Shown here one piece after another: positions 5,099 to 58,731 of a stretch of 64,000 bases of DNA. Numbering within the stretch: position 1 is the first letter of the stretch; the number at the start of each line of letters is the position of its first letter. The DNA comes from Selaginella tamariscina (lineage: Eukaryota > Streptophyta > Lycopodiopsida > Selaginellales > Selaginellaceae): positions 52,348 to 116,347 of the forward strand of contig PUQB01000154.1 of assembly GCA_003024785.1 (NCBI GenBank), in the 5' to 3' direction. The notes under the pieces were generated by a model that worked only from the letters and a program-made list of their open reading frames with translations, made no database searches and was not told the origin of the DNA. The translations under genes were made by a program, and so were the position numbers.

Positions 5099-5102
5099 AC
5101 GA

Positions 5103-6000
5103 TTACTGGTTTTCCGCAACAGATCCACCCGCAAGAGAAGCGTCATCATCTGGAAGCTCATCATCAGACATAATGGCCGCCACAGGTACACCATCCGGAA
5201 CATATGGTCGCCAGCCTGGATGTGGTGGACGCCAATCAGGATACACATCGCATGCCCGCCAAGTATGTCCAGGTGCCCAACAGGCCCAACAATGAACTTG
5301 ATTGGGTTGACCTGCATTGTTCCGATTCCTCCTGTCACGAATCCGTGGATTTTGACCACCACGGGCAGGAACTGGAGCAGGTGCAGGACGATTTCGTGGA
5401 GGTGGTCCACGGGGTGGGCCCCGAGGTCGACCACGAAAGGCTTGTCGTGCGGGCACATATGCAGCAGCATCAACCTCCATTGGATCAGCACGCTAAAGAG
5501 GAGCAGGTAACCCAAGGGGAACACGGCCCTCACCAGGCACCAACTCAAAACGTTGAGCTAGTGCAAAAGCTTCCTCCAATGTGGTAGGACGAAGAGCCCG
5601 AACGAATCGAACAAGTTCGGGTCGCATAGTTGGCCATAACATACCGAGCTTAATGGCTCAGGCATGTTAGGATATGCACGCCGACTAAATCCCCGAACCT
5701 AATACTGAATGCATAAAGACTCACCAGATGTTGTCATATGCATGCAATTGTTGGAAAGCATCATCTGAATCTCAACTTTGCCAAACGTACGTTTGAGACA
5801 TTCCTTCAACCGATTACTATTGGCTTGAATCCTGCAGCCAATCCATTATACCACTTGAGCGCAGGGCCTTCCAAAATGTAGGGAATTCTCTAGAGCACGG
5901 GCTCATCCCAACCATGGTAACGAACAATAACTGGAAATGATCAAACCATGGTATACATCATCTCCCGGATCACCACAAAAAGATTGGGTCGAACCCTCGG
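5103..6000 (-). pseudogene. Gypsy copy 1 gag with CCHC zinc knuckle
   Basis: The region encodes the nucleocapsid part of gag. A CX2CX4HX4C knuckle (CWACWAPGHTWRAC) sits at about 5250-5291. It follows a basic Arg/Gly/Pro-rich stretch (FRGRPRGPPRGPPPRN), typical of nucleic-acid-binding gag tails, and precedes an acidic linker (DDELPDDD) toward the protease. The N-terminal capsid half (5480-6000) is homologous to gypsy copy 2 but is split among frames by small indels. Confidence 0.75.
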
Positions 6001-6489: not shown

Positions 6490-8815
6490 TTAATTGATCT
6501 TATTGTTTCTCATCACCCTTGGCTTCCCACTGGCACCTTGTGCTGACAAGATCCAGTTGATGCAATCTCTCATGTTGTTTGGGATAGATCTCAACTTTAA
6601 CGCGCGCTGCAAAGCTGCTTGCCTCTCTAATCCATTATAAAGTCCCTCCACAAACAAAAAGGAAAGTGCGAGCGAGCACCAATCATCACGATACTGAAAC
6701 CCCTTCTCCTCCTCGAAGAATGGACACTCGAAGCAGGGAGTTCCAACACGTTGCCGGAGCACTTCCGTTGGCTCGTCAATGAAACAGGATGCATCGAAAT
6801 CGTTCAACTTCAGCTGCCCATCAAATATCAGAAGGTTAGCCGGCTTGACATCCCTGTGATATACACCTCTCGCGTGTATGCCATAAACAGCTTTCTCGCC
6901 ATTGTCCCAGAGTTGCTCATAGTTGCTCACCAAATCTCCACGGTGCATTGGACGTCCATAGCCACTCAGAGCCATCCACCTCAACCCCTCTCCTGCACCT
7001 ATCACGACCCCGCAGTAGTTCGGCTCCAACATGGACCTGATGTAAGGTAAACTGTCCACACTGAGGTGGATCTCACACTCCCTCGAATCCTCCTCTCCTC
7101 TGAAACTTTGACGACAGAAGGCTCTGTACCCCTCCGCAACACAATGGACTTGTAACCGTCTGAAATGACTGTCGCTCCAGTTAAGTCAAGTTCCACATTA
7201 TCATCATCTCGTATGAGCTGAATAGGAGCCAATGGGATGTTCAGCTTTGAGCAGAGAGTGTCCACAAACCTCACTAACAGCCGAAAGCCGGGTTCAGGTC
7301 GTGCAGGAACTACATCCTGCAACGTCGCCTCTGTGTCAACTTTGTCAAGCTGCGTTATGTCGAACAGCAGGTTCCTCCGGTCCCAAGATTTTGACACAGG
7401 GAACTCAGGTGCCACCTGAAGCGATTGAACCTGACCGTTCTCCCCATAAGTGAAAAGAGCAAACCACAGACGTTCAATCCTCTCTACAAACAAGCCAAAG
7501 TGCCAAGTTGAGCATCTTTCATGTTGCACTTAAGCATCTTGGCAAACCCGTCCTTATTGCTGTCTATCCACCAGTTGGATCGCCTGGTACAGTGCACCGG
7601 AAGGTGCTTTTAAGTTCGCTGGGCTGAGAAGTGTTGCGTGCCCGCAAACATATATCCTCCCCAGCAGATCCTTGATGAACGTCTTTAAAGAACTCGATGT
7701 CAGGCTGGCCTGACGAGGCTCCAAGGCAGAATTGAAGAAACAATGGATGGATGGTACCTCCAAATCGTTCTGATTCTTTGCCCGACTTCTCCTCATCTTC
7801 AAAACTTTCTCCAAAGAAGCGCTTTAGCTTCGAACAGCAAAAAGTGTAGATACCGGAATTCAGCAACCAGACCGCAACGGCTGCAAGAGTTCGTCAATGT
7901 CAACGGTGGTCCTTGGCACCTGCCTTTTGACAACTTGCTCTTCCCACAAAGTCAACAACTCAGGACATGCTTCAAAAGGTATGGTAGCCAAGGAAGAGTT
8001 TCCGTATGATAGTCTGCTGTCGTGAACTCTGTCCTGTTCTAAACCCTGAAGCCTTAACTCAAGATCGAACGAGGTAGTATCACCAGCCCTTCTGACATGC
8101 AAAACGAAGACTTGTGGCAATTCCCTGTGTACCAGTTCACTCAGCTTCCACCAAATGCCATCACTAACCTGCATTTCTTCAAAATTCTTACTTTTCAACC
8201 ACCTCCATAATTCAGTCGTGCTGTCGATGTTCGAGGAACTGCCTGAAAGACTTGGCCTGGGTGGATGCAAATCCTGCGCCCGTCTGGATTATATCCCAAG
8301 TATGCCTTCAGTTCAGCTGTACCCTGTTCAGTCATATCGTTCTGAAACAGAATGTCAGTTCCGGGAGAGAGCAATTAATAGTCACTTACTCGAGGCAGCT
8401 CCTCGAGGTTGGACGGTTCCGCTTGAGCCCTGCTGAATAAGAAACTTGTTGCTCAGGAATCAAGAGAGAAGTCTGCTGAGGAATCTCTGACTGTCCAGTA
8501 TTTGTTGTGAAATCTGCCCCGCTCCATTTCCAAAGCAGACTGTACGGCCCTGCTTGGCCAAATTGAGAGTGTTGTCGAGCCATCGCCGGCAAGGTCTGTT
8601 GCTGAGAGAAGCTATGCTGTACCGGGGGATATTGGGGAGTCCAATACAGCAGTGGAGAGCATACTGCGGATGTGAAGCCAAACCATACCGTATCCAGCCT
8701 GCGGTTGCAATCTCGTTTCCGAGGGATATCCTCCATACCCATCTGGGGTAAGCATACCCAGCCTGCGGATGTCCTATAGCATCCGGCCATTGTCTATTCC
8801 GATCCTGCGCCATTC
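6490..8815 (-). pseudogene. Kinase-like gene, copy A (DFD-type kinase domain, Gln/Pro-rich N-terminus)
   Basis: On the minus strand the protein would start with a Gln/Asn/Pro-rich segment (QYPPVQHSFSQQQ). A domain of unknown type follows (ELWRWLKSKNFEEMQV), then a middle region with QPDIEFF and SELKSTF. Last comes a protein-kinase domain with a likely ATP lysine in SVVKVSEE, the catalytic loop HRDVKPAN (about 6858-6835) and NDFDAS at the magnesium site (about 6800), where DFG is usual. GTPCFECP resembles the activation-segment end. An intron of about 50 bp (GTAAGT...TTTCAG) falls near 8342-8395, matching copy B. Frames change near 8270, 7840, 7540 and 7050, with stops between, so it looks decayed. 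The layout resembles Crinkler/RHS-type nuclease-kinase effectors, but that is inference. Confidence 0.6.
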
Positions 8816-11042: not shown

Positions 11043-13335
11043 TTAATCCTGATGTTTCTCATCACCCTTGCCTTCCCACCGGCACCTTCTGTCAGACAGT
11101 ATCCAGTTGATGTGCTTCTCTACTCCATTATAAAGTCCCTCCACGAACAAAAAGGAGAGTGCGAGCGAGCACCAATCATCACGATATTGAAACCCCTGCT
11201 CCTCCTCAAAGAATGGAGACTCGAAGCAGGGAGTTCCAACACGTTGCCGGAGCACTTCGGATGGCTCGTCAATGAAACATGATGCATCGAAATCGTTCAA
11301 CTTCAGCTGCCCATCAAATATCAGAAAGTTAGCCGGCTTGACATCCCTGTGATAAACACCTCTCGCATGCATGCCATAAACAGCTTTCTCGCCATTGTCC
11401 CAGAGTTGCTCATAGTTGCTCAGCAAATCTCCACGGTGCATTGGACGTCCATAGCCAGTGAGAGCCATCCACCTTAACCGTCTCCTGCTCCTGTCACAAC
11501 CCCGCAGTAGTTTGACTCCAGCGACCTGATGTAAGGTAAACTATCCACGCTAAGGTGGATCTCATGCTCCCTCGAAATCTCCTCTCCTCTGAAACTTTGA
11601 TAACACAAGGTTCTGTACCCCTCCGCAACACAATCGACTTGTAACCCTCTGCAATGACTACCGCTCCAGTCAAGTCAAGTTCCACATTATCATCATCTCG
11701 TATGAGCTGAATGGGAGACAATGGGATGCCAGCTTTGAGCAAAGAGTGTCCACAAACCTCACTAACAGCCTAAAGCCGGGCTCAGGTCGGGTAGGAACTA
11801 CATCCTGCAAGGTCGCCTCTGTGTTCGCTTTGTCAACCTGCGTTATGTCGAACAGCAGGTTCCTCCGGTCCAAGATTTCAAGACAGGGAACTCAGGTGCC
11901 ACCTGAAGGGATTGAAGCTGACCATCCTCTCCATAAGTGAAAAGAGCAAACCAGAGACGTTCAATCCTCTCTCCAAAGAAGCCCAAGTGCCAAGGTTGAA
12001 CATCTTTCATATTGCACTTAAGCATCTTGGCAAACCCATCCTTATTACTGTCTATCCCGCCAGTTGGATCGCCTGGTACAGCACACCGGAAGGTGCTTTT
12101 AAGTTCACTGGGCTGAGAAGTGTTACGTGCCTGCAGACATATATCTTCGCGTGCAGATCCTTGATGAACCTCTTTAAAGAACACAATGTCCGGCTGGCCT
12201 GACGAGGCTGCAAGGCAGAACTGAAGAAACAATGGATGGTATGGTACCTCCAAATCGTTCTGATTCTTTGCCCGACTTCTCCTCATCTTCAAAACTTTCT
12301 CCAAAGAAGCGGCTTTAGCTTCGAACAGCAAAAAGTGTAGATACCGGAATTCAGCAACCGAGGCGCAACGGTTGCAAGAGTTCGTCAATGTCAACGGTGG
12401 TCCTTGGCACCTGCCTGCTCTTCCCACAAAACCAACTCAGGACATGCTTCAAAAGGTATGGTAACCAAGGAAGACTTCCGTATGATGGTCTGCTGTCGTG
12501 AACTCTGTCTCTGTTCTAAACCCTGAAGCCTTAACTCAAGATCGAACGAGGTAGTATCACCAGCCCCTCTGACATGCAAGGCGAAGGCTTCTGGCAATTC
12601 CCGGTGTATGGGTTCACTCAGCTTCCACCAAATGCCATCACTAACCTGCATTTCTTCAAAATTCTTATTTTTCAGCCACCTCCATAATTCAGTCGTGCTG
12701 TCGATGTGTCGAGGAACTGCCTGAAAGACTTCGCCTGGGTGAATGCAAATCCTGCGCCCGTCTGGATTATATCCCAAGTATGCCTTCAGTTCAGCTGTAC
12801 CCAGTTCAGCTATCTGAAACAGAAACGTCAGTTCCGAGAGAGAGAGCAAGTAATAGTCACTTACCCGAGGCAGCTCCTCAAGCTCGGACCGCTTCCGTTT
12901 AGGCCCTAATGATTGCTCAGGAATCAAGAGATGAGAAACCTCTGTCTGTCCAGTTATTTGATGCGAAATCTGCCTCACTCCATGCTCCCAAGCAGGTATT
13001 ATGGGCCCTGCTTCATGCTGCCATGCGCCCGGCAAGGTTTGTTGCTGAGGGATCGTTGGGGAGAAGGGTTGTTGAGCCATTGCCGGAGGGATCGCTGGGG
13101 AGAAGCCATGCTGTACCGGGGGATGTTGGGGAGTCCATTGTGGAGGCGCATACTGTGGATGTGAAGCCGCAAACTGCGAACCATATCCAGCCTGCGGTTG
13201 CAGCTTTTGCGAGGACCAATCTGCGTGTAAGAATCCGCATACCCAACCTGCGGATGTCCTATAGCATTCGGCCATTGATTATTCCGATTCTGGAAGCCCT
13301 GGCCTCCATGAGCATACCTTGGACGATCCGCCATT
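11043..13335 (-). pseudogene. Kinase-like gene, copy B (tandem duplicate of copy A)
   Basis: Same organisation and strand as copy A, 4.5 kb away. The N-terminus at about 13334 (MADRPRYAHGGQGFQNRNNQ) is Gln/Asn/Pro-rich, with repeats of FSP.IPQQ type. A basic KRKRSELEELPR segment ends exon 1. A canonical 51-bp intron (GTAAGT...TTTCAG) lies at 12814-12864; read-through of it stays open, so it is easily missed. Exon 2 has the conserved block (KAYLGYNPDGRRICIHPGEVFQ cut short here to its first residues, KAYLGYNPDG), then QPDIVFF...SELKSTF. The kinase domain has HRDVKPAN (about 11351) and NDFDAS (about 11294). Compared with copy A it lacks a block before KHINWIL and differs by many single bases. 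Frames shift near 12400, 11860, 11740 and 11480. It may be a pseudogene or may carry assembly indels. Confidence 0.6.
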
Positions 13336-13639: not shown

Positions 13640-15009
13640 TATATAAAGGCACTAGCCGGCTCCCTCACTGGAACACGCCGAGGCAAAGAAGATGCTTGTT
13701 GGTGTAGCTACGCTTGCCGATCCATGGGTTCGTGTTTGAGCTTGTCAAGTCACTAGAAAAAACTTTGCAGTGAGAAACACGGTCTGTGGGAGTCTATCCG
13801 TGGCCGAGACGGTGTGCAGTTCATGATCTCCTTACTCGGAGTCTCATCTGAACAGCAGCAGGAATATGCAGTTGCTTTCTAGACAGATTGAGGACTCCAA
13901 CTGGGCTATCACTGCACCTGGCGGTATACCGCCATTGGTGCAGCTCTTGGAGACCGGCTCTCAGAAAGCAAGACAAGACTCCGCCATTGTCTTGGCCAAC
14001 CTCTGCTCTCACAGCGTCGACATCCGTGCTTGTGTACAGACTGCTCAAGCAGAGGCTGCATTACTGTGGCTACTAAAGAATGCAGGTGACGAGGGACAAG
14101 AGATAGCCGCCCGTGCCATTGTGAAGCTCGTGGTAGTGCCTGACTCCAACAGGATGAGTCAGCTCACTGCTATTGTAGTGGGAGAGCTACCTTCTTCAAA
14201 AAAGTATGTACTCGATGTGATGAGCTCACTGTTGCTCCTTGTTCCTGAGTCGGAGATGTCAAAGCAGGAGAGCTCAGCACACGAGGCGGTAAACACACTC
14301 GTAAGCCTCTTAGAAACCTCGACTCCACCTGACACACTCGAGAAGTCGGTTTCTGTACTTGCGGACATTGTTCAACACGCCCTGACGTACACGAGAGTGA
14401 GCTAGTTAGGAAGGCTGTTGGACCTCTCAGTAAGTTGCTTGTGCCTGTGTCCGAGTCCGAGATGGGTGTACAGATAGCCGGACAGGCTGCTCGTGCACTT
14501 GGCGGCTTGTTTTCATCAATTCTTCGGTTGTCACATGTGAAAGAGGCTGCCCGTGATGCCATCCTGCCCCTCGTGGAGCTTACCGAGGTTCCTCTTCTGG
14601 CTGCTGCTGAGTCCCTGGTGTTAGCAATTGCAAACCTGTTGCTCAACCCGGATGGTAATCTCTCTCTCTCTCTCTCGCTCTCTCTCTCTCACAGACACAC
14701 ACACACACACTAATGGTACTACTATTACCAGTTGGATTGGATGTGCCTCTTGGGGAGATGATAGAGCCACTGATGAGAATATTACAAGAAGGAAACAGTG
14801 ATGCACAGGATAATGCGGCAGTTGCACTTGCACGTATGTTTGATATTCATTTGATTGATGAAGAGCTTCTTGAACACGTCCGGTCTTCTGGGACCATGCT
14901 TGTGCTTGCTCGACTTCTTCAAGCCGTCCGGTTTGAGCATGCTCAATCATCTCGACCACTTGAAGCTCTCTCTTCGGTATGTGTTCGTGTGCCTGTGTGC
15001 CTGTGTGAC

Positions 15010-16790: not shown

Positions 16791-17014
16791 TGGATTGGCT
16801 GGACAGGTTAACAAGAAAACTGTTCATTATCTTGTTCATCCTCATCATTCTCATAATCCTCGTTATCTTGTTCATCCTCCTGGTCATCTCGTAATCTTCA
16901 TTATCTTGTTCACCCTCTTGGTCATTTGCTTCATTGTTGTCCTCGTTCACTTCAGAATACATTACATTCCCAACACTCCCACTCAGGAATACATAATATT
17001 CCCAATACTCTCAC

Positions 17015-17775
17015 TCAAGCTGAGTTGGACTTCTGCACGCCAAGAGCTTGTGCATGTCGCATAAACACTGCTGGTGGAAGTGCCTTCGTGAATATGTCCA
17101 CCACCATCTCCACAATGTCATAGTAGATGAGTTCCACTTTCTACATTGCAACCTGTTCTTTTGTCGTACAATGAAATCTTGGATTCTTCGTTAGAGCAAT
17201 GGCTCTCTAATTGTTGCAATGCAAGACCATTGCTTCTCCTTGCTCATAGCTCAAACCGTTGAGCAAAGTCCTGAGCCAAAAAATTTCCTTGGCTGCTTGT
17301 GCCATCCCAATATACTCGGCCTCGATGCTCAAGAGTGCCACGATCGGCTGCCACTAGCTACTCCACATGATTGCTGCACTATCTAGGTTGAAGATGTAGC
17401 CAGAAGTTGATTTATGCTGATCAACTTCCCTTGCCTAGTCCACATCCAAGAATCCTTATAGCTTGAGTTGAGGCTACTTTTGTTTTGTGTAACACAAACA
17501 TGATCGGTTGTCCCCTTCAAGTAATGAAACACTCTCTTAACTGCTTGCCAATGCTGGAAGCCAAGATTTGCCAAAAACTGCAACACCACTCCCGCAATGT
17601 CCAGCTTGGTACAAACCATGAGGTAGACCAAATTGCTAACCATCTGCTAGAACAGAATCCTCTGCATCACATCTTTTTTTGCTTCCGTTTGGGGTGCCAT
17701 GTCCTTGCTGAGATGCAAGCCAACTTCCATTGGCATTGATGTAGAGTTGACATCGCTAAGCTTGAACTTTTGGAG
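17015..17775 (-). pseudogene. Copia pol 3' part (RT end and RNase H)
   Basis: Recognisable copia blocks are YLMVCTKLDIAGVV and HWQAVKRVFHYLKGTTDH (17643-17470), then the C-terminal DIFTKALPPAVF...HAQALGVQKSNSA before a TGA at 17015-17017. The frame is broken in several places, with stops between 17100 and 17380. Confidence 0.8.
17767..17775. repeat. Left 9-bp target-site duplication (CTTTTGGAG)
   Basis: This copy of CTTTTGGAG directly precedes the MULE terminus. The identical 9-mer directly follows the right terminus at 25972-25980. Nine bp is the usual Mutator-superfamily duplication length. Confidence 0.88.
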
Positions 17776-17812
17776 GGGTCTCGACGAAAAGGAGGCTCGG
17801 CTCAGGAGGCTC
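17776..17812. repeat. MULE left terminal inverted repeat
   Basis: The terminal about 35 bp pair with the reverse complement of 25935-25971. Shared blocks are TCG at bases 6-8, GGAGGCT at 16-22 and CAGGAGGC near base 30. Confidence 0.8.
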
Positions 17813-17936
17813 ATATTATTCTAGTATATTATGGATATTCCAGAATATTCTAGATATATCAGAATATTCTAGAATATATAATATGCCGACTGGCTTAAAT
17901 ATGCCGACTGGCTTAATAAAGCATTTTATAAACCAT

Positions 17937-20900
17937 TTATCCTTGTAGCACCGGTGGGTCATGAACTCTGCTGCAATTCACCAGCAAACGGTGGACCTCC
18001 ATCTCACTGAGCGATCGCCTTTGTAGAAAATATGTGACGTCCGGGTTCAAGCCAAGCACACGGCTATAGACGAAGTACATGTGTACACATGGGCTCCAAC
18101 TTTTGCTCTTCTGAAAGGTAGAACAACTGCATATAGGATAAGTATTAATAGTCACCTTTGCAGAGTCATTTCCTGCCGACACAACGAAAGCCTCCTTCCG
18201 TCCTCTACTGTCACTTCAACATTTCTCACACGACCTAAAAACGTCTTGGCCTTGGAAATTCTTCTCTTGTTCCTTAGACATTTTTGTTGGAGTCCGGACC
18301 ATACGTCCTTCGAAAGGTGGAATTGTTGTAGATCCAGCTCCACGTGGTGGCGATGGTGTTTTGTCCTTCTGACCCTCATCTACTCTTCCTGCCATCCCCT
18401 GTAAACCTTCCAGAACAAAGCCTGCATCCTGTAGTTCTCTGACCTCCTCACTTGTCAGCTTCGTTTCCTTGAGCACAGGCCAAACCGTTGGTGGTGTTGG
18501 AATTCGTGACGAAGAATTTTGCCGTTTGGCCGCGTGAAACACCCTGAATCTTTTGGGCAGAACCACATCATCTGTTGTACATACTCCTCATTCCCCAAGG
18601 CATCAATGTACATTCGTTTTCCATAGAATCCTGGTGCTGGCACTCTGCTTGGATAACCGATTGGTTTTCCACACAGAGCAGTTCCTTCCTGATTCATCCC
18701 CAAACACTTAACCTTACTGGATGCTCCGATTCGTCTGATGGCCCACTCTGTTTGAGCAATCTCTCTCTCCAAAACCTCTTCGAACCTTAACCTCTTTCTC
18801 CTGTTGTTTTGGACCACCCGCTCTGTGTACTCTACATCATGTCTGTGTGAACGTCGAGCATCAGACTGTTCTGTTCCTGTGACTGTTCTCCTAACAGTTT
18901 GCACTCGAACGTTAGTGGTACTCGTGAACTCCGGGCTGGTCAAGTGTTCCTCGCCTTCCACCAGATTGATAATTGTTGATGGAGATACACTTTTCCCCTC
19001 AGAGAGTTTGCGTTGCACTCGTTTCAACAGAGTTTCCTTCGAAGGCCCTGACCCTGTATACCTCCCTTCTATTGCCGCTTTCACCTTCGCACTCTGCATA
19101 ACTGCATCGGTGAGGTCTAACATTGTCGCCTCCAGCAGTGGTACTCTTTTGGCCAATCTTGCTCTTCTTGCTCTCGCATGAATCACTTCAGCATTGTTTG
19201 TAGTTGGAACGCTCGCGAGTCCTTCTTCTGTCATGTCTCCCAGTTCCGCCATGGAGATGTGGTCCTCATGCCTGATCCACCAAGACAGCCATGTCTTCAA
19301 AGCTCGAATGTTTGACGCTCGTCCTTCCCAAAAAGACTCGAGAATTGCCAGTTGTTCTTTCTTAGATTGTTCATTCAGTGCTGCAGGCCAGGCACGAGCA
19401 AGCTTCATGTGTTCTTCGCGATGTTCTTCTGCGATCCATTTCTTTGTCACCTGACGCACGGATTGCATAAAGTGAAACAGACAGCTTCTTTCCCTCCCTT
19501 TCATCTTTGCTCCGTTGTTGAATACTTGGCGCAAGGCTATCCATATCGCTCCAGCCTCATCCGACATGAAACCAGCAAAGTTGACATTCTCCAAACCCTG
19601 CTTCTTACAAACCTCTAGCATTGTGTTCAAGAACTTCAGCACTGCAACATTATCTTCGCGGCACATATCTGCGTAAGCTATAGTCACCATGGATCTGACA
19701 CTGCAAGAGAGCGTTAGATAACGAAGATTAGAAAGTGTTATGAAGAGTTTTACAACTTACAATGGGTCATAAAGGTGTATTCCAATTGTCGCCCAGTCTG
19801 GTATGCGGTGCGTGTGGTCCAGAACAACCCATTGATCATGAAGGTCTCCTCACTTTGACACCTTTGATGTAGTCAACTCCTGAACCCGGTCCCTCAACTG
19901 TCATTTTGAAGATCAGAGGCTGCTCCTCAGCACCATACAGTTCCATCCCTGAAACATGTATGACGTGAATGAAAGGTATTGGCAACTTTGTCTTCAGCTC
20001 CAGAAGACCCTCGTAACCCTCTCTAAAGTGTGTCTCCTTCTGTCTTGATTGTGTAATCCAGTCCCGAGTCCTAAAGAAAGGTCACGTCAGTGTGTAGAGA
20101 TCTAAAGAAAAATACCTTCGATGGTTTGTTAGAGGTTCAAGTTTTGAGAGTAAACCAGTGTACGAGACTTCTCCTTCTTCCTTGAAAAGTTCTTCAAAGA
20201 TGAGCTCACGCAGCTTGAAACTCAATCACTCGTTGATTGGTTCGCGGACTGCTCTTTACCACGTTGCTGACACTAGATCTGGCTCGCTGAACGTTTGAAG
20301 CTGACACTGAGGGGCTGACTGGATGCTGATGAACACCTCTGTGAATGAACAACCTTGTAAAAGAAATGTCGTCTGGCAGAATGTAGTACACATAAGCCGG
20401 ACAAGTGTGCACTAGCAATGGCTCCTCTCCACAATGCTTACATTTCATGCCTATTACTTTGCCTGTCTCAGTTGTCTTTGCCTTCTCCACAGCACCCTTG
20501 AAGTGACATTCATTTGCTTTCTTCTCAAAAGCCAAGTAGGGGCAGGTAGGATTGATGCATTTGAGATGTCCGACACATGAACTTCGACTGACTCGCGCCG
20601 GAACATGCCAGTGTGTTGTGCTCGGGTGTGTCCAATGGTAGCAGCCATCCTTGCGATTCATCCCCAAGTACTTCTCTGTGCTTTCTTTCTTTGGGGAAGT
20701 TCGTAAATGACATTTCCATTGTATATCTGCGGTAGTTCAGAGACTCGTTTAACTTCAGACGAACCAATGAGATCCTTCCCTATCCTACATTTGTCTGCTC
20801 TTAGAAGACACACCAGCATGGATTCCTCACGCTCCTTTGTCCGCAACCTGAACAACGGGCCCTTTGGGCACAATGTGTAAAAGACAAACTGGTTTGATGC

Positions 20901-21089
20901 ATTGCCTTCTGGTAACAACTCCACATCTTCTCCAGAACTCGCAGAAACTGACATCAATTGAACCACATGTATACTGAACCAACAAGGAATGTTGAAAGCA
21001 AAGTGAAGATCATGTTCAAACACAAAAGCATTTCCATCTTCATCGACTGGGAAATCTTTGTCAATGCCTTCATAGGTAACTCTGGCCAT
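17937..21089 (-). pseudogene. MULE transposase (zinc-binding N-terminus, DDE core, SWIM finger), lightly frame-broken
   Basis: The product would cut and join the transposon ends. The start at 21089 (MARVTYEGIDKDFPVDEDG) opens exon 1 (20116-21089). Exon 1 holds a Cys/His region (GHLKCINPTCPYL, CKHCGEEPLLVHTC, HRGVHQHP), perhaps a WRKY/GCM-type finger. A 45-bp intron (20071-20115) and a 60-bp intron (19701-19760) follow. The DDE core shows VVLDHTHRIPDW for the first Asp, FAGFMSDEAGAIW for the second Asp with CLFHFMQSVRQ after it, and TNNAEVIHA for the Glu. The C-terminus has CSCSTFQKSKSWSPCVH (about 18120), a CXC...CXH SWIM motif, ending at 17937. Single-base frame breaks fall near 20665, 19850, 18460 and 18200. 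All catalytic residues remain visible, so decay is recent or partly assembly error. Confidence 0.82.
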
Positions 21090-21515
21090 GACAACGCAAG
21101 GAGAAAGCTCGGTGGTTTAGGAAAGCAAAGCAAAAGATTAAACACACTCTCGTTCGCCAAAAAAAATTATAATCGTTGATAATAAACGTGAATACACTTT
21201 TGTATATAATTAATTCTACGCTGCCCAGCTCACAGTGTTCTTAATGCTGTCCTCTCTAGTATCACCGATTTAATTTAATTACCTTTTATGATTTGAAATA
21301 TCTTCACTTTACCAATTATTCACATATTTTAATAAACCCTAAATATTAATGTCACATTTATTCCGTAGGTTCACTTTTTCATTGCGGCTAGGGTTTTTGG
21401 TTAGGGTTTACTTTTCCACTGCGGCTAGGGTTTTTTGGTAGATGGTTTACTGTTTCCACTGCGGCTAGAGGTTTTTTCAATCTCAGATCTGAGTTCTGTC
21501 TTCCACTTGAGGCGG

Positions 21516-22500
21516 CGCCATCCATTTCGAGTCAATTCGTTGTAGCGCCCAAGTAATCATCGAGATTTCTGTGCCGATTTAGATTGTCGGCACCATCCTT
21601 CAGTCGGCGGCCACAAGGTATGTGCAATTTCTTATTTTTAATTTGTGGCTCAAATAATTTTTTTTCAGAGATAAAGGGTCTTCCCATTTGTGCCGACTGA
21701 GAGCGGCACCATCCTTGGTTCAGTCGGCAGCCACAAGGTATTTTCGATTTGTTATTTTTTTTTCTTTGCGGCTCAAGTATCCGTATCACAATGTTTTTTT
21801 TTTCAGAGTTAATGTGTCTTCCCATGTGTGTCGGAATCCTAGAGATAAAGGGTCTTCATTTGTGCCGAAGAGTGACGGCACCATCCTGGTTCAGTCGGCA
21901 GCCACAAGGTATTTTCGATTTGTTTATTTTTTCTTTGCGGCTCAAGTATCCGTATCACAATTTTTTTTTGTCAGAGTTAATGTGTCTTCCCATGTGTGTC
22001 GGAATCCTAGAGATAAAGGGTCTTCTCATTTGTGCCGACTAAGAGTGACGGCACCATCCTGGTTCAGCCGGCAGCCACAAGGTATTTTCGATTTGTTTAT
22101 TTTTTTCTTTGCGGCTCAAGTATCCGTATCACAATGTTTTTTTTGTCAGAGTTAATGTGTCTTCCCATTTGTGTCGGAATCCCAGAGATAAAGGGTCTTC
22201 CCATTTGTGCCGACTGAGAGTGACGGCACCATCCTGGTTCAGTTGGCAACCACAAGGTATTTTGAATTTGTTTATTTTTTGCTTTGCAGCTCAAGTATTT
22301 CTTTTTTCAGAGTTAATGGGTCTTCCCATTTGTGCCGTCTGAGAGGGACAGCACCATCCTAGCTCAGCCAGCACCATTATCTCTTCAGTGCCGTCTGAGA
22401 GGGTCGGCACCAACTATCTCAGTCGGCAGGATTTTGTTCTTCTACATCTCTGTGCCGACTGAGAGGGTCGGCACCATCTAGCTTGAGTCGGCAGCCACAA
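21516..22500. repeat. Tandem array of 173-175-bp units between the divergent MULE genes
   Basis: The word CGGCACCATCC recurs at 21703, 21876, 22049 and 22224, giving a period of 173-175 bp; shorter partial units lie before (about 21587) and after (about 22350, 22400, 22465). Each full unit has GTCGGCAGCCACAAG|GTATTTTCG, then a T-rich run, then TTTCAG|AG, so each looks like a donor, a roughly 80-bp intron and an acceptor. GTGCCGACTGAGAG...GTCGGCAC forms an 8-bp stem hairpin. The position suggests a repeated 5'-leader or promoter region for one or both genes. Confidence 0.85.
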
Positions 22501-22579
22501 GGTTAGTCATCTTTGCTTTTTATTTTCATTTTGTCTCCTAATCAATTGACTTGTGTGTTTGCTTTCCAAAGTTTACAAA

Positions 22580-25500
22580 ATGGTGAGAGCTTCAAAAACG
22601 TCTACTAGAGACTGTGCCTGATGAAGAGCCACGGGAAGAGGAGGATATCGAAGCACAAGCGAGGAAAGAGAGGAGAACCATCTAATGTAGCAAAGGAGGA
22701 TCCTCCAATGACTCAGTCTAAAGTAGTACCAGTTGAGCAGGAGCAGCCTCCATCAACCATCACAGATTTCCCAGAGAGCTCGTCGCATTGCCTCCTTCAT
22801 CCGCTGAGGTTGCAGTCCTGAACGAGCAAGTGCAGATGACAGAGGCAGTTGAAGCTAGCGAGGACGACTTGGAGGAGGCAGTCAGCAAAAAGAGAGGCCG
22901 CGGGAAAGCTGATCCAAAAGGCAAGAAGGCGAAGAGCGATAAGGAGCCGAAGGAGTTATACAGCATACCGGCTAGCCTGCATTTGGAGAGCTCAGCGAAC
23001 CTGCTCGACAAAATTACTATCAAGGGACTTGGTGATCCTCCTGATGTGCCCATCTGTAGAATGCATTCGAACGAGGTGGTTCGACGAGTGAACCCAGGGG
23101 ACTTGGACAGGCTGGTGTCATCGTTGAAGAAGGCTGGTTATCTACGCAACACGGCCTTGTTCATTCTGTCCATCGGAGATCGACTCACTGCTGAGGAGCT
23201 ATCGGAGCTGTCGAAGGACACATTCAGTACGAGCAGCACCGGTCTTTCGAGCAAGCTCTTACTCAGCCGGAGTACAAACAGTGGGCTTCAAGGCTCTCAA
23301 ACAGGAAGTTCAGCTGCTGGGACGGGAACCATAGGCTACAGGCTTTGCAGAAGCTGTACCGAGGAGGATGCAGAGGACAACCAGCGATGGGCTATTTGCG
23401 TTCGATCGAGTTTCATCTCCACGGAGAACCTCGACAATCTTCAACTGGTTTCGATGTTCCAATCGATTAACATGTGAGTATTTTCTTTTCTTTTTGTTAA
23501 GAGTCTAGACTTACAGTTTCATTGAACAGATCTTCAGCAACATCTGTGGAAACAACGCTACCACATATTCTCCTCGCTGTAAAGGCGGTCTGCACTAGTA
23601 CCGAAGGAACTCAGAAAATCCTCGAGTCACTCACGGAGGTTGATCGTCTTGAGGTGCGGAAGTGGAAGGAGAGTTCAACAGGAAAGACGGCTTGGCATCC
23701 TCTTCCGAACCTGATCTGCAAAGATCCTTTTCAAGGTAACCTCCGATTTGATTTATAGGAAAGAAGTTTTTAACTTATTCTATGTGCAGAACGAGATCGA
23801 CGATGATCTCGACAGAGCAGTCACCAGTGCTAAGGGCAATCCACAGTTGAGCTGAACCTGAAAGCAGCTAGTGTACAAGAAGCATGACAAGCGTATGCAC
23901 AAGTTCCTCTCCATCATAGACCCAGACTTGGGGGAGGAGTGGTTCCAGAAGGTGACGAAATCTCTCATAAGCAGTGTCGCTGGATGGGCATTGAGAAGCT
24001 GTATGCGATGTCAAAGGCGAAGATTCAAACATGCTGCGACTCCGATACTTGAACAAGCTCACCCGTCTCGAATCCAAGGCAGAACAACAGACACTTGGGC
24101 TACCAGGCATGCAGGACAAAGAGTGGATCAAGTGGTTCACCTTGGACTTATATTGGAAGGCTGTGCGCGAGGAAGCCATTCAGATCCTTAAGGGGTTGCG
24201 AGAGGATGGTGAAGAAGTTGGAACGGATGTCGACTTCATGAGCTGGTTTGACGAGATGGAACTCGGAGCAAGTGCCTGGTCTTTCAGCCCTTCCATGACT
24301 GCATACGGTTCACTTATTCGATGGAGCCGAATGAGTTTCTGGAGCGTGAGGAGTCTGCGCGTCGGATGATATGGAGGTAAGCTTTCATTCCAGCATTGCT
24401 ACTGTCTGACTTTGTGTTACAGGTTCATACTGGCGAAGAAAATGGCACACGTCTCAGACGATGAAGCTGTGGACAGATCATACAAGCGAGCCTCACATGT
24501 GGTCGAAGAGCAGAGGAGCTCTAACACCGTTCGAACGGGAGCATGTTCCATTCTGGCTCGACTGTCCGTCGCAACAGCCACCAGCTTGGGAGAGCTCACT
24601 ATTCGACGTGCACGGCAATGATCTACCAGCGATTGTTTGGGAGCCGGACGAAGTAGAGGCTATCAAGAAGAGCAAGATGAAGAAGACGGTGCGGAAGACA
24701 ACTACACCTGCAAAGGGATCGGGAGCGGGACCAAGCTCTTCTACAGCACCTCCGCCGGCAATCGACTTTACAATCAATGAGGTGCAGCCACTTGTAGCTG
24801 TTTGGACATCAAGGACGACCTGATGACCTTCATCCCGACCCTGGCTGCATCCCGTGGATCCTACGACCTAGCTGTGTGCGATATGGAGGAGATGAGCAGG
24901 TCTTTCTTCGAGCCGGTGCTTCCCAGACAGAGGTGTACACCAAGCTCCGACAACAGGTTGACAGACTACATACGGTGAGTCACAAACGGTGTTCCAGGAA
25001 GTGGTAGGTGAATACGGCTTCAACCTCATCATCCTCGACTTGCCCAATGAGCTTGTATATGGAGGTGCTAGCATCAACAAGGACATTGTGCAGCTAGATC
25101 CGGTGAAGTTTGAGGAGGCCTTGCAGTTCAGTGGAATGCACTTGGCAGCGAGTGGTTTCATGGTCGTCTTCGCGAGTTCTCCTTCTGTTTCGGCGGTGAT
25201 TCAGGCGGCTGCGTAATCAACTTGGAGGTTGCAGGACTTACAGCGTCTACCGTGCACGAGGCTGGGGATACCGTGACAAAATTAAGGTAAGCTAGCTATT
25301 CAAGTTCAAGTTTAACTTGGTCTATGTGGCAGGATAACTTGTTAGTTCTCTTGGTGCTGCAAAGCTCTGAGAAGAAAAGACCAAACCCTCTGGCGTTGAC
25401 GAACACGATCCTCGTCGACACTGCCGACCGTTTTCAGGAGGCTTGGTAAGGAAGTACTTTGCTTTGTTTATCCTAATGGAAGTTTGTGCAGGATGATGAT

Positions 25501-25738
25501 TCAACCGAAGAGTGTTCGACTCATGCAGCTTTTGATCGAGCGTCTCAGTAGACCTGGCGACCTAGTCTGGGATATTGGTTCCGGAACCGGATCATCATTG
25601 TTAGCTGCCGTCGAGCTCGGAAGGAATATTATAGGAACCGAGAAGAGTTTCGAACTCTCTAGGTTGGCAACAAACAAGCTCGCAGAGAACATTAGACCAG
25701 AGGAATTACCTACTCAAACACCTCCACGTCCAAGCTAG
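22580..25738 (+). pseudogene. Cargo gene: ParB-like domain plus beta-class DNA N4/N6 methyltransferase, intron-containing, frame-broken
   Basis: The ATG at 22580 has a good context (ACAAAATGG). A charged, Lys-rich leader (KKRGRGKADPKGKKAK) may be a nuclear signal. A ParB-like domain follows: DVPICRMHSNEVVRR and LDRLVSSLKKAGYL (23035-23150), then WDGNHRLQAL (23318-23347). After about 1.6 kb of unassigned sequence comes LIILDLPNELVYGG, the place of motif IV (25037-25048 DLPN; family DPPY or SPPY). Then QPKSVRLMQLLI (motif X) and VWDIGSGTGSSLLAAVELGRNIIGTE (shortened: DIGSGTGSS, 25571-25597), motif I. Order IV-X-I is beta-class. Five GT-AG introns fit: 23474-23530, 23736-23790, 24377-24422, 25287-25332 and 25446-25491. 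Frame breaks near 22620, 22700, 23225, 24010, 24820 and 24975 weaken it. It may be one fusion gene or two. Confidence 0.72.
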
Positions 25739-25934
25739 TGGTGGTTCGAGAACTGCAGCTTTACTTAAGATGAAGAAGAAACTTTAGCTAATGTATATTG
25801 AGTAATAAATTAAGCTAATATAAAAAAAAATAAGATAAAATACAACAGTTTTACTAGAATTCTTTTTTGCCGACTGAGGCCAATACTGCCGACCAGAAAA
25901 ATATTCTAAAATATTCTAGAATATTCGAGCCCAG

Positions 25935-25971
25935 GCCTCCTGGGCCCCAAGCCTCCAAAATGGCGACACTC
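25935..25971. repeat. MULE right terminal inverted repeat
   Basis: Reverse complement begins GAGTGTCGCCATTTTGGAGG and matches the left end with a few mismatches and one small gap. Confidence 0.8.
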
Positions 25972-25980
25972 CTTTTGGAG
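25972..25980. repeat. Right 9-bp target-site duplication (CTTTTGGAG)
   Basis: Identical to 17767-17775. The copia reading frame resumes directly after it on the minus strand. Confidence 0.88.
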
Positions 25981-28890
25981 GAGTTCTTTGATGTACTTAT
26001 TTTGAGACATTTCCAATGTTCCCTCCTCCTATCTATGAAGATCTGGATCCCAAGACAATACTTGATGCTCCCAAGGTTCACCATCTTAAATCTTGAACTA
26101 AGATCTTTCTTGAGTTGATGAATCAGCTTCTCATTTTTGCTAAGGAGCAAGTAATTGTCCACGTACAAAGCTAACAGCACCAGGAGAGTTCCACTCGCTT
26201 GATGTACACGTTAGTGCCCGTTAGTGTCTGCAGAGAGACTCTTGAAGCCAAGGGCAAGAAGAAATGAATTCATCTTTGCGTACCAGGCACAAGGCAATTG
26301 CTTCAGGCTATAGAGGGCCTGCACACCAAGTGCTCTCAACCTTTGGCAACAAATCCAGCTAGTTGCTCGATATAGACTTCCTCCTCCAAGTTGCCATTCA
26401 AGAACGCTATAGTCATGTCCATGTGCTTGACCTTCATGTCTTCTTGAGCTGCTAAGTTGTAGAGAAGTTGAATCAATGCGAGCTTCATCACTGTGGAGAA
26501 AGTCTCGTAGAAGTCAGACTCCTTCGACTTGTGAGAATCCTCTCGCAACGAATCTGACTTTGTAGTGCATGTCTCCATCAAGTCCCGTCTTGAGCTGCAA
26601 AGGAACTTGGTTTTTATCACCTTCCTCCCAGGTGGTAGCTCCACGAGGTCCCAAGTCTAATTTTCTATTAACGAGTTGTACTCAACTTGTCAAGCAACAC
26701 GTCACTAATCCACATTACCTCTAGCAAGAGCTTCTTCCATGGTCTTCGGGACAAGTGCATCTCGTCCATGATTGAAAAGGAATAGAAGCTTGTACTCGTC
26801 ATGCTCCCCTTCTCCCTCCATGCAGGAGTAGGCAAATAGAAAGCGGGGTTGTAGGAAGTCTCAGGAATTGGCACTATAACTTATCTTTCTCTAGTAGCTT
26901 GGCAAGAAGCCCATTTGGCTTCTTGCAAATCCAGTTGCTCCCTATATTGGCACCCAGCCTCTGTGAGCACTTGCTCATGGCTTGAACATTGTAAACCTCC
27001 CTCACTATTTTCAGACCTGGCCTTGCCACTAGCACGTTCACAACCTTGGTCTGCTGCTGTTACTGGGGTTTGCTGCCCTAGCACTCCCACTAGATCCAAC
27101 ACCTCTTGTGTCGAGTGGCAATCCTTCTGCTTCATGGGGCAAGTCCTCACTCCATCCAGCACCATCCTTGCTTACTGCATTGTCCTCATTGCTCTTGGAT
27201 CATCCTAGTTGCCACCTCCATTCTCATTGCCAGCTTCTCTAGCTCTACCTAGCGTGATTACACATGCCCTAACTAGAAATTCGTTGTCACTTTCTTCCCA
27301 GTCATCCTCAGCTACTTCCATTAAAGAAAACTATGGCAGTGGCTGGAGATCTCTTGTCATGTACGTCTTGGGCTCATCACAGATGACATCCCTGCTCACG
27401 ATCATTTTCTAAGTCTCGAAGTTAAAGAGCTTGTAGCCCTTCATGGTGTCTACATATCCAATATTAAGGACACACTTCTGACTAGTGCTAACGAGCTTAT
27501 CTATGTATTTTTTAAGCACATGCGCATAACAAATGCTCTCAAAAACATGTAGATGGTCACATCTGGTTTTACATCATACCACACTTCATATGGGGTCTTC
27601 CCTAGCACATCTGTTGTAATTTGGCAGTTAAGCAAGTAAGTTGTCGTGGCAATAACCTCACACCAAAAGGAATTTGGTAGGCCTGAGTCTTGTAAGAGAG
27701 TTCGTGCTGCCTCTTGGAGTGTGTGATTCATCGCTCTACTACACCGTTTTGCTGCTGTGTATCAAGAATTGAGAATTACCTTTGTATTCTAGAGGATTTA
27801 CAAAAACTAGCAAATTCATTGGATGTATACTCTGTGCCTGTATCACTTTTCATTGTATTTCTTGAATTTTTCGAAGGCTTCTGACTTGAGCTATAGGAAT
27901 TTCACTATGACGATTCATAAGAAATCATCAATGAAGATCACGAAGTATAGCTTCTTGTCTCTAAAAAGTGTGGCCATGTTTCTAAAACATCAAAATGAAT
28001 CAATGCTAAAGTTTCCTTAGCACAATTAGTGGCTATTTGTGGAAAAAAGAAGCTGGTGATGTTTACTAAGTGCACAAGACTCGCAAAATTTCATCACACT
28101 TCATGAGGTGATGCTTAGACCTTTACTATCGCTTTTGCCACTAGTTCTTTGACATCCTGCAAGTTTGTGTGGTTGAGTCTCCTATGCCATATTTGGGGTT
28201 CTACTACTTTCTTTGTCCCCGCAAAAAGAGCTTTTGCTAGCCGCATCACCTCAACATTAAGACCGGCATGTCTTCTCCCACAAACTATTCCATTTTTATT
28301 CGTGTTCATGATTGCACACATCCTCTTCATGAAGGTGATCTCCAAATCACTATCAGCTATCTTCCTATAGAGAAGAGCGTCTTGTTCACTCCAGGAACAT
28401 AATAAACATTCTTGACACTTGCAATTTATCTTGTTGGCAACTTAATGTCAATTGTGCCAACTCCTCCACCTTGTAGGAATAATCGTCATCGAGAAAAATT
28501 CTCCTATGTCCTAGAACCTTTTTCAACGTGGTGAAAATTCTCTGAGGTGTGTCATGTGTTTGGTCGCCCCAAAATCAAGGTACACAACTTCTGTTGTTGT
28601 GTCAAGAGTGTTCTTTGGGACCTGCTGGGTACACCAGGCCATGAACAAGCTGCCATGGTCATCCATGTCCTTATGGTCGTCATCTCTTCTACTTTCTACT
28701 ATGCTAGCAAGTTGGCCGACTTCTTCTTGCTTGCCGCCAATCTCTTTGCCTTAGTTTTTTTGCCTCCTTTGCTTTCTTGGCATCTCTGTCTGTGCAATCT
28801 CTTGCCCAGTGTCCTAGTTTCTTGCAGATGTTGTAGAGATCATTCTTCTTTTTCTGTAAATTCAAAAATTAAGACTAACTTAATTTACCT
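25981..28890 (-). pseudogene. Copia gag tail, integrase and RT 5' part
   Basis: The gag knuckle near 28860-28790 reads YNICKKLGHWARDC, so the first zinc-binding Cys is replaced by Tyr. The gag-pre-integrase domain has WHRRLNHTNLQDVKELV (about 28190). Integrase C-terminal blocks include NHTLQEAARTLL and PYEVWYDVKPDV (27730-27560). RT blocks are MDMTIAFLNGNLEEEVYIEQ (26430-26370, first residues MDMTIAFLNG) and YVDNYLLL (about 26165), where the catalytic YVDD has become YVDN. Stops and shifts lie between these islands. The element cannot be active. Confidence 0.8.
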
Positions 28891-38644: not shown

Positions 38645-41600
38645 CTATTGTGGTGGAGGGACGACTTGGTGAGCGTCCAGTGCGAGTCCTTGTGGATAGC
38701 ATGAGTAGCGATAACTTTGTGTCAACAAAGTTAGTGGAGGAGTGCAGCTTGCCCACAATCAATATGAATTTGAAGGCTCAACTATCACACAGAGCTACAG
38801 TGCTTGTGTGGAGGAGTTACAGCTGGAGGTTGGCAAAACCCAGCTGGTGGAGCTGCGCGAAGAGCCTCAATACGAGATTGAGGGCTCAGCTATCACACAG
38901 AGCTACATGCTTGTGTGGAGGAGTTACAGCTAGGTTGGCAAAACCCAGCTGGTGGAGCTGCGAAGAGCCTCAATACGAGATTGAGGGCTCAGCTATCACA
39001 CAGAGCTACAGTGCTTGTGTGGAGGAGTTACAGCTGGAGGTTGGCAAAACCCAGCTGGTGGAGCTTACGAAGACTGTGCCTCAATACGAGATTGAGGGCT
39101 CAGCTATCACACAGAGCTACAGTGCTTGTGTGGAGTTACAGCTGTAGGTTGGCAAAACCCAGCTGGTGGAGCTGCAAGAAGACTGTGCCTCAATACGAGA
39201 TTGAGGGCTCAGCTATCACACAGAGCTACAGTGCTTGTGTGGAGGAGTTACAGTTAGGTTGGCAAAACCCAGCTGGTGGAGCTGAACGAAGACTGTGCCT
39301 CAATACGAGATTGAGGGCTTAGTTGTCACACAGAGCTAAATTGCTTGTGTGGAGGAGTTACAGAGAGGTTGGCAAAACCCAGCTGGTGGAGACTTTCTTT
39401 CTTGCGAAGCTAGTGCGTGTGGATCCTAAGATCTAGTGGAGCACCAAGCACATGAAGCTTGAGTATAGTGAAGTGAAAGACACTTGGTTTGGAACAAAGC
39501 TTGAGTCTCCAAACAAGTTCTTTTACTGTCACCTTGAGCAAAGCTGTTGTGCGAGGAGTTTGCTGACGTCTTCCCTCCTGAGCTACCTCATGGCTACCAC
39601 ATGCAAGAGGTGTGGAGCTGGAATAGGGTACGAAAGCCATTTACCGTAAGCCATTCCGACTGAGCCATGCTAAGGAGCAAGAGGTTAAGAGACAAGTGAT
39701 GGAGCTATTGGAATATGGCTTCATACAACTGAGCAAGTCTCCATTTGGTGCACCAGTATTGCTTGTCAGGAAGAAAATGGCACCATGAGGATGTGCATAG
39801 ACTACAGAGCTCTCAACAAGCAAACAGTGAAGGACAGGATGCCCATGCCATGTGTGGATACTATCATGGATCATCTCGGTGGAGCCAGAGTGTTCACCAA
39901 GATAGTTGGGCATTTCGAGTTCACTGTTATGCCATTCGGCTTAACAAATGCCCCAGTCACATTCACTCGGTTGACGACTGAGGTGTTTGGTGACTACTTG
40001 CACGACTTTGTGGAGATCTTCCTCAACGATATTCTTATTTACAGTAAGAATATGAAGGAGCATGTGCAGCATTTGCAAGAGTTCTTCAGTTGTTGAGGGA
40101 GAACAAGCTCTATGCAAAGAAGAGCAAATGTGCATTTGCTCAGTGCAAAGTGGAGTATTTGGGTCACATTGTGACGCCAAGTGGAGTGAAGACTGATCCA
40201 CAGAAGGTGGCAGTGGTGGAGCAATGGCCAGTTCCTAGCAATGCAAAGAGTTACGGAGTTTCTTGGGCATGGCTGGTTATTACGCGGTATGTCAAGGATT
40301 ATGCCAAGAAAGCTTCTCCGTTAACTAGGTTGCTGAGGAAGGACGTTCCCTTTGCATGAAGTGCTTCAGAGAAGAGCAGTTTCCAAGCTTTGAAACAAGC
40401 TTTGGTACGTGCACCAGTTTTATGTATTGCAGATCCCTCTAAGCCTTATGAGGTATCGTGTGATGCAAGTGGAGTGGCCATTGGAGTTGTACTTATGCAA
40501 GAGGGAAGGCCTATTGCTTATAAGAGTCGTACTTGAATCCTGCAGAGCAACAATACTCAACGTATGAGCAAGAACTACTGGCTATTGTTAATGCATTATG
40601 AGTTTGGAGGCACTATCTTTATGGTGCAAGTTTCAAAGTGTTTACAGATCACAAGACTTTGGTGTATCTGTTCAAACAGAAAGAGTTAAACTCTCAGCAA
40701 GCTCGCTGGATGGTTAAGCTCATGGAGTTTGGCAAATTTCCTATTGAGCATTGCGTGGGAAAGGCTAACGTGGTGGTATATGCTTTGTCACGCGTTAGGA
40801 GAGCCACAGTGGTTAGAGAATTCCAAACACGCTTATGTAATGCATTAACAAGGACGGTCAGTGAGTTTAGCCAGGTAGTTCAACATGCTCAAGCACAAGA
40901 CGCTGAGGTGCAGGAGCTCAAGGACAGCTAGAGCCACCATTCTCATTTTAGGATGGAGTTTTGTACTACAATGGCCGTGTGTATCTTCCTCGTGTGGACC
41001 ATTTGATCAACCAGTACTATATTTCCATCATGATCACCCGGAGGCTGGTCATTTTGGGGGGGAAACGTATGAGTTGATCAAGAGAAGGTTCTATTGGAGG
41101 AATATGAAAGCTAATATCATAGAGTACTGCAGGACTTGTGACAAGTGTCAGCAAGTAAAGGTGCCCAGGGAAAAACCAAGTGGGCTATTAGTACCATTGC
41201 CTATTCCAGACAGGCGATGGGGCAGTATCTCTATGGACTTTGTCACCCATTTGCCAAGGACACAGTGGCATTGGAATGAGTCCATATTATGCTATGTTTG
41301 GACGGCATTCCAAGACAGCTTTTGAGCTGGGTTTAGCAAGTAAGAAAGCTCAAGGCAACATGGATGAGGAAGCTAAAGATCTGAGTGTTGAGCTTAGAAA
41401 CATTCAGAGTTTGTGCAAGAAGAACTTACAAGTAGCTCAGAGCCGAGCTATCAAGTTTGTTAATGAGCACAGAAGCTTCCAAGAGTTCCAGGTGGGAGAT
41501 TATGTATATCTGAGTGGTATTTGCCACACATGTAAGGCGAACACTGTTGTGGCCTTACGGAAGGGACACAATGATAAGTTGTCTCCTAGGTACTCAGGTC

Positions 41601-58300: not shown

Positions 58301-58640
58301 TCCAAGCGTAATATAGGAGGAGAGACTGAAAAATTAACCAATCACATCCCAGAATAATGTCAAAGACCTGGGAAGGGACAACCCTAAGAGACCCAAAGGA
58401 AAACTTAAGGTTGTCACCCATAACTAGTGTAGTTGAAGTGGTGTATTGTGATACTACACGAGACTACCCATTACCATATAAAATGTGCAAGACCTTATCT
58501 ACACGTCTTAAGGGTAATGAGCAACCAATGTGCCAAAGAAGTAGTTATGGAAGACATATTGAATCTTGTATTGAAAAATCATTCACCCGTGCAGAAAATG
58601 TGAAAATTAGATGATCTGGTGGAAATTGTAATCCTTGATA
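55386..58640 (-). pseudogene. Gypsy copy 2 pol, decayed
   Basis: Traces include integrase KFRRSFYWPSIVDVIRYI (56456-56390), VVDLMRPFP, LVERLNWTFKGIIS and LVLIRFPKL, and RT FINDVLIHGFG (about 57580), where FIDD has become FIND. Frame breaks are frequent and more numerous than in copy 1. Confidence 0.78.
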
Positions 58641-58731
58641 TGCATAGCAGAAAAAACATGAAGGTGAAGTCTCTATTGCACGGGATCCCTTTGTCGCCCG
58701 TACGATTACTGGTTTTCCGCAACAGATTCAC

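Follow-up and report, generated by a model that had tools for sequence, protein, structure and literature searches.

Proteins that join a ParB-like part to an N4/N6-methyltransferase have been published as accessories of algal transposons: one is carried by the Ectocarpus element Sola1-1_Ec32, and accessory proteins of the same sort from green and red algae are cited in the same account (PMC12477816). DNA methyltransferases are also known from retrotransposons, with DNMT3-type enzymes in dinoflagellates and Klebsormidium and Dam-like enzymes in DIRS elements (PMC5890265). MULEs are described as making target-site duplications of 8–11 bp (PMC6446971), and in one of them, VANDAL21, the protein VANC21 binds arrays of YAGTATTAY in the noncoding DNA of the element (PMC5735166). 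The locus analyzed here, in a window of 64 kb (the whole stretch of DNA under study), contains a MULE-like element with a gene of the ParB-like/methyltransferase kind. No report of a MULE-like carrier of such a gene was found in the open-access literature searched, in which PMC12477816 alone described the kind. The preliminary description of the locus knew of no such MULE; as far as searched the MULE-like carrier is new, whereas this kind of accessory protein had already been published for algal transposons (PMC12477816).

A recently mobile MULE-like element

The element starts with GGGTCTCG and finishes with CGACACTC (Table 1). It contains two divergent genes, one for a transposase (minus strand) and one of the ParB-like/methyltransferase kind (plus strand), with a central repeat array between them. 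On the plus strand of the 64 kb, CTTTTGGAG occurs only as the two target-site duplications, while minus-strand copies lie at 3305 and 56945. The duplication measures 9 bp here and in most complete copies elsewhere, which is within the 8–11 bp expected of a MULE. The locus had been described as bounded by an exact 9-bp duplication and terminal inverted repeats. The duplication was confirmed, but the repeats proved to be only short and imperfect: a local match as good as the best between the 60-bp ends was reached by 19 of 1959 60-mer pairs drawn at random from the window and by 2 of 2000 shuffles.

Table 1. Positions of the element, its genes and its repeated motifs in the window
Feature	Position	Strand	Remarks
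Whole MULE-like element	17776..25971	.	8196 bp; ends from duplication and copies elsewhere in the genome
Left target-site duplication	17767..17775	.	CTTTTGGAG, exact 9 bp
Right target-site duplication	25972..25980	.	CTTTTGGAG, exact 9 bp
Left terminal inverted repeat	17776..17812	+	GGGTCTCG...GGAGGCT..GGCTCAGGAGGC; short, imperfect
Right terminal inverted repeat	25935..25971	-	inward GAGTGTCG...GGAGGCTTGGGGCCCAGGAGGC; short, imperfect
Transposase gene	17937..21089	-	ORFs; intact copy 1019 aa in three exons; frame breaks in window copy
Two exact CAGTCGGCA, left subterminal	17884..17910 (17884-17892, 17902-17910)	-
Central tandem array	21666..22298	.	unit length about 175 bp, 3.7 units; separates the divergent genes
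Six exact CAGTCGGCA, central region	21691..22461 (21691, 21721, 21892, 22208, 22420, 22453)	.	several inverted pairs TGCCGAC-n-GTCGGCA
Exact CAGTCGGCA, right subterminal	25868..25876	-
Second gene, exon 1	22580..23473	+	ParB-like boxes VRRVNPGDLDRLVSSLKKAGYL (about 23077) and WDGNHRLQAL (23318-23347)
Second gene, exon 2	23530..23735	+	gene model from copies
Second gene, exon 3	23790..24376	+	without known domain
Second gene, exon 4	24423..25286	+	motif-IV position FNLIILDLPNELVYGG near 25019-25066
Second gene, exon 5	25333..25445	+	gene model from copies
Second gene, exon 6	25492..25787	+	motif X (IQPKSVRLMQLLI), motif I (VWDIGSGTGSS), N6_N4_Mtase match

A Copia element was the target of the insertion. 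After excision of the insert together with one duplication, the flanks gave a continuous reverse-transcriptase frame. Positions 158–209 of Pfam RVT_2 were matched in the right flank (E 2.3e-10) and positions 213–243 across the rejoined junction, the latter weakly (E 0.022, under the curated cut-off). The two parts of this degenerate Copia pol (RVT_2 match) lie at 25981–28750 and at about 16980–17766. Elsewhere in the window, 1769–5985 and 55441–59561 are 4.2-kb direct copies with 87% identity, the first of them with a Gypsy-type reverse transcriptase and an integrase. A 1.9-kb duplication (6620–8538 and 11113–12995, 90% identical) is accompanied by a protein-kinase piece (PF00069) near 6493–7185. 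An ARM-repeat gene piece (PF00514) at 13827–14402 presumably resembles a plant gene family, and at 38759–39395 a retroelement-like ORF contains tandem repeats of about 106 bp.

Judged by eye, we take the transposase to be MULE-like, with D...D accompanied by CLFH, a late E in TTNNAEVIH and a C-terminal SWIM-like CSC..SPCVH (DDE/CxxH pattern). Profile search gave no match of the transposase to Pfam MULE (PF10551), and the SWIM profile reached E 0.04, below its cut-off. Zinc-finger-like regions are present as well, and no transposase relatives were found in the viral contigs searched. Among the eight copies with frames listed, only L084 had the whole transposase frame; in this copy both genes are open.

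The genome (300.7 Mb, 1391 contigs) was searched with the last exon of the second gene, yielding 1304 first-look candidates. All 150 that were scored showed 90–100% identity, about 84 of them with one identical score. Twenty copies of about 10 kb each, picked by the methyltransferase gene, were fetched from the best-scoring part of the list. In blastn, 19 of them stopped on the right at window positions 25968–25974 (L074 at 25915), and five extended on the left to 17775/17776 in the raw alignments. When the end sequence of the element was used as probe, both ends were located in 13 of the 20 copies, 7.9–8.6 kb apart. Eight of these complete copies carry their own exact 9-bp target duplication, each a different one, and two carry an 8-bp duplication (L068, L076); in the remaining three (L072, L073, L085) the duplication is absent or unclear. 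The transposase region was present in 19 of the 20 copies and missing in L080, a count that is one-sided given the selection by the methyltransferase gene. Close to L074 (G000:C566:205950-215949) lies another fragment belonging to this gene family, which corresponds to window 25286–25926, as well as a further last-exon place at C566:198228; these are nested or neighbouring insertions.

Three insertions, L068, L069 and L084, share identical gene DNA over 3260 bp. The window element appears to be a decayed copy of a high-copy, recently mobile and autonomous MULE-like DNA transposon. Full copies elsewhere in the genome keep the second gene, as the preliminary description required: in this gene-picked sample, 13 of 20 were complete at both ends and 4 of 20 had the gene open.

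The second gene: structure, domains and selection

The gene is interrupted by five GT-AG introns of 46–56 bp in the window copy and in intact copies. It had been placed at 22580..25738; the start was retained, but the stop at 25736–25738 is peculiar to the window copy, and homology puts the stop at 25785–25787, giving a gene from 22580 to 25787. Of the window and the 20 copies taken together, 19 accommodate the same five introns, there about 46–57 bp long; the patterns used could not place them in L074 and L087. Four of the 20 copies (L068, L069, L082, L084) are open over 992 codons. Compared with the coding sequence of L084, the window copy shows 64 substitutions and 19 indels, 18 of which are frameshifts of 1–2 bp. 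Near-identical copies differ from L084 as well, L070 by no substitution and two frameshifting indels, L071 by one and four, respectively; part of the frameshifting indels in such copies looks technical, reflecting assembly error rather than decay, and those of the window copy may be of either origin. A frameshift-free reading of the window copy through extra introns, obtained from a codon-usage parse, was rejected because the intact copies show the real exons. This parse had dropped WDGNHRLQAL, which stands in frame in the intact copies.

Pfam N6_N4_Mtase (PF01555) matched the last exon with 39.1 bits and the 992-aa translation of an intact copy after splicing with 35.8 bits (cut-off 26.7), the match covering only the last 55 of 221 profile positions. 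The C terminus also matched DNA methyltransferase families of PHROGs (best 4.4e-11) and PADLOC type II methyltransferase models (best 1.6e-10); all of these matches, including that to N6_N4_Mtase, are confined to motifs X and I. A protein search returned seven proteins up to E 10, which are short bacterial-type methyltransferases (best E 4.2e-4, with 48% identity in the region of motifs X–I, 21% of the query), and the best match in the PDB had E 1.7e-4. Motifs X–I were matched by 199 phage records at E up to 0.1; no relatives of the methyltransferase half were found in the viral contigs searched. Full-length relatives were found neither with query residues 130–905, without the last 76 that hold motifs X–I (best 8000 candidates scored), nor with residues 780–981 (6143 candidates). 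The profile match, the five introns and the genomic copies together bear out the earlier claim that the transposon carries a prokaryote-type (N6_N4_Mtase) methyltransferase gene with introns.

The order of the motifs, with the motif-IV position followed by X and I at the C terminus, is that of the beta class. All 21 sequences of the first set, made up of the window plus 20 copies, retain motifs X and I. At the motif-IV position every one of them has DLPN, as do six of the seven copies that cover this position in a second set of greater divergence; the exception, L090, has NLPN. DLPN aligns exactly at DPPY of the bacterial relatives, with the D and the second P kept; a [DNS]PP[YFW]-type motif was not found anywhere on the plus strand of the gene. 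Thus, of the beta-class motifs IV, X and I reported previously, X, I and their order were recovered, whereas motif IV was represented by DLPN instead of DPPY. Since DLPN is found in all 21 sequences, recently moved intact copies included, it is a family trait and not a result of decay. Its constancy makes catalysis by the putative methyltransferase doubtful, while motif I (DIGSGTGSS) would still fit binding of S-adenosylmethionine.

The signature sought for a ParB/RepB/Spo0J N-terminal domain is a box G-x-[HR]-R-x-x-A that follows R..(F/N)..L..L..S(I/L)...G. As to the ParB-like part here, the pattern DG[NEHQ][HR]R..A occurs once in the six frames of the window, with 0.001 expected per gene length. 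None of the profile libraries searched gave a match to ParB (PF02195). The first box was equalled by 32 of 3000 shuffles, and both boxes against canonical ParB by 391 of 3000, with the transposase control scoring higher (8.1 vs 6.5). hhalign aligned the region with ParB in register, with a probability of only 2% and a score of 17.8 vs 17.1 for the best of 40 shuffles. A DGNHR-type profile yielded 20.8 bits, equalled by none of 300 full shuffles and by 24 of 300 motif-keeping shuffles; this profile is partly circular, as its 13 loci were kept by eye from 42 that had all been fetched by that pattern, and DGNHR also occurs in unrelated proteins among the fetched loci. Against phages, the ParB half gave one chance match. 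Key boxes deviate in two late copies, L089 (WDENHR) and L090 (the NLPN mentioned above). Taken together, the second ParB-like box appears far from chance and the first is suggestive; membership in ParB is unproven, the likeness being one at motif level. The two domain assignments fared differently in the profile searches, PF01555 being matched and PF02195 not: WDGNHRLQAL holds as a motif, in frame in the intact copies, but the profiles did not establish a ParB domain. A ParB–methyltransferase fusion of the bacterial type, as put forward earlier, was not supported either: about 500 residues without a Pfam match separate the ParB-like box from the methyltransferase domain in the 992-aa protein, and shuffles scored as well as the boxes at the rate given above.

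Selection was assessed as dN/dS from a simple site count with Jukes–Cantor correction. For the second gene, dN/dS ranged from 0.26 to 0.43 in 11 comparisons (at least 500 codons, dS > 0.03), which all share L084 and are thus not independent. Among these are seven of the eight further copies, with 0.26–0.43; the range leaves out copies with dS below 0.03 and L088, whose value of 0.77 comes from 114 codons, too short a stretch. Older copies add neutral decay, which raises dN/dS. For the four most diverged sequences of the first set, namely the window, L074, L076 and L077, comparison with L084 gave 0.32, 0.29, 0.32 and 0.30 for the second gene and 0.43, 0.38, 0.27 and 0.20 for the transposase, respectively. 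Assuming a lenient neutral share of 0.30, the synonymous excess had P values of 0.005, 0.0001, 0.014 and 0.002 for the second gene and of 0.16, 0.0004, 0.005 and 0.0005 for the transposase, in the same order. Intron divergence in L094 (13/247) and L095 (12/248) was close to their dS of 0.054 and 0.049. The second gene is under purifying selection; a dN/dS near 0.3 marks it as a selected component of the element and not as a passenger or a chance capture. From dN/dS and the synonymous excess we conclude that the element spread while both proteins were constrained.

An element-specific motif and the proposed role of the second protein

The sequence CAGTCGGCA occurs nine times in the noncoding DNA of the element and is absent from its genes and from the other 55.8 kb of the window; it is the only 9-mer common to the left, central and right noncoding parts. 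With one mismatch allowed, the window contains 24 sites, 18 of them in the element, compared with 5.3 expected, and none of 100 shuffles reached 24. A shared 9-mer that was also absent outside arose in 2 of 500 simulated runs. Looser nulls were less clear, any shared 9-mer being found in 16 of 500 simulated runs and for 173 of 2000 real flank pairs tested against the array. The 13 complete copies carry 10–18 exact CAGTCGGCA per element, whereas their genes and 21,556 bases of flanking DNA are free of it. Between 9 and 16 of these sites lie in the central region, where the two start codons are 1234–1814 bp apart. This distribution is as would be expected of a candidate self-recognition site. 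Each array unit also shows inverted pairs TGCCGAC-(7)-GTCGGCA and splice-like edges (AAG/GTATTTT ... TTTCAG/AG), as if the edges were those of repeated 5′ leader exons and introns.

We propose that the second protein is a self-directed accessory of the MULE-like transposon, changing the element's own modification or chromatin via the candidate CAGTCGGCA sites; we consider it likelier than its rivals, with the case for and against it about evenly balanced. The protein would bind DNA by recognizing the repeated CAGTCGGCA close to either end and in the promoter array between the divergent genes, where its methyltransferase domain would alter the modification or chromatin state at these sites. By such anti-silencing, transposase expression might be maintained, or the element ends might stay usable. 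A bolder and tentative version, which we hold to be possible rather than probable, is that of a land-plant MULE with a DNA-modifying address system of its own: the accessory protein would read CAGTCGGCA arrays at promoter and ends and write N6-methyladenine or N4-methylcytosine, a mark alien to plant silencing; the protein and the expanding array would co-evolve. Against the proposal of a self-directed accessory speak the DLPN motif IV, the missing ParB profile match, the less clear outcome of the looser nulls, the deviating boxes of L089 and L090 and the fact that CAGTCGGCA could be the binding site of the transposase.

Because of DLPN, a serious rival is a catalytically dead methyltransferase domain that serves for binding or as a scaffold; the protein would then block silencing by DNA binding, like VANC, and not by methylating. 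In favor of this reading, DLPN has replaced DPPY in 21 of 21 sequences and is kept by recently moved intact copies; a motif I still fit for S-adenosylmethionine binding, in a protein that dN/dS shows to be kept, also agrees with it. However, a pure scaffold would have no need of motifs X and I, which are kept in 21 of 21, and DLPN stands exactly at the bacterial DPPY with D and second P retained; we consider a dead enzyme rather improbable. If instead CAGTCGGCA were mainly a site for the transposase, the second gene might assist transposition in a mudrB-like way, by taking part in excision, insertion or the assembly of the complex. Helper genes are known from MULEs (PMC6446971), the motif lies near both ends as well as in the promoter array, selection is similar on both genes, and the transposase has zinc-finger-like regions. 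Yet most CAGTCGGCA sites (9–16 of 10–18) are in the central array and not at the ends, and a methyltransferase fold would be odd for a strand-transfer helper, which renders this role unlikely. A gene or fragment caught by chance in Pack-MULE style and useless to the element is very hard to reconcile with the data: the gene is indeed broken in the window copy and in 16 of the 20 fetched copies, but it evolves at dN/dS 0.26–0.43, is open in recently moved copies and accompanies the transposase in 19 of the 20 copies, a one-sided figure for a gene-picked sample.

Comparison with known systems

The closest counterpart of the proposed self-directed accessory is the protein of Sola1-1_Ec32, which is likewise long (1104 aa there, 992 here) and encoded by a DNA transposon, in opposite orientation to the transposase gene (PMC12477816). 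It is described as combining a ParB-like with a methyltransferase domain predicted for 4mC or 6mA, whereas ParB is seen here at motif level only (PMC12477816). The carriers differ: Sola1-1_Ec32 is a 21.5-kb Sola1 element of a brown alga (PMC12477816), the present one is MULE-like, 8 kb long, flanked by 9-bp duplications and located in a plant-like genome. Our element is further set apart by its high copy number and by DLPN as motif IV, and the two are likened by layout and length, not by sequence.

Bacterial and phage beta-class N6/N4 methyltransferases (PF01555; PDB 1g60, M.MboIIA) share with the protein described here a motif IV followed by X and I at the C terminus; here, in contrast, DLPN stands for DPPY, and the domain is part of a 992-aa eukaryotic protein encoded with introns. 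The retrotransposons with methyltransferases are similar in being mobile elements with a gene for a DNA-methylating enzyme, but they are retrotransposons, their enzymes belong to other families, and no ParB-like part is mentioned for them there (PMC5890265). Already in print are thus the kind of accessory protein and the idea of self-marking; as far as searched, the MULE-like carrier, the evidence of selection and the motif array are added here. Given a selected gene, a candidate motif and copies that are numerous, recent and partly intact, the old question of self-marking of transposons with 6mA or 4mC becomes directly testable.

If our reading is right, a class of accessory proteins so far described from algae enters a genome with plant features and the MULE superfamily, which offers a well-studied anti-silencing system, VANC, for comparison. 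Like the element described here, the VANDAL MULEs of Arabidopsis have a second gene and an element-specific short motif that is repeated in noncoding DNA, with turnover of tandem repeats (PMC5735166). VANC differs in that it causes loss of methylation and is not described as a methyltransferase in that account, and its motif is distinct from CAGTCGGCA (PMC5735166).
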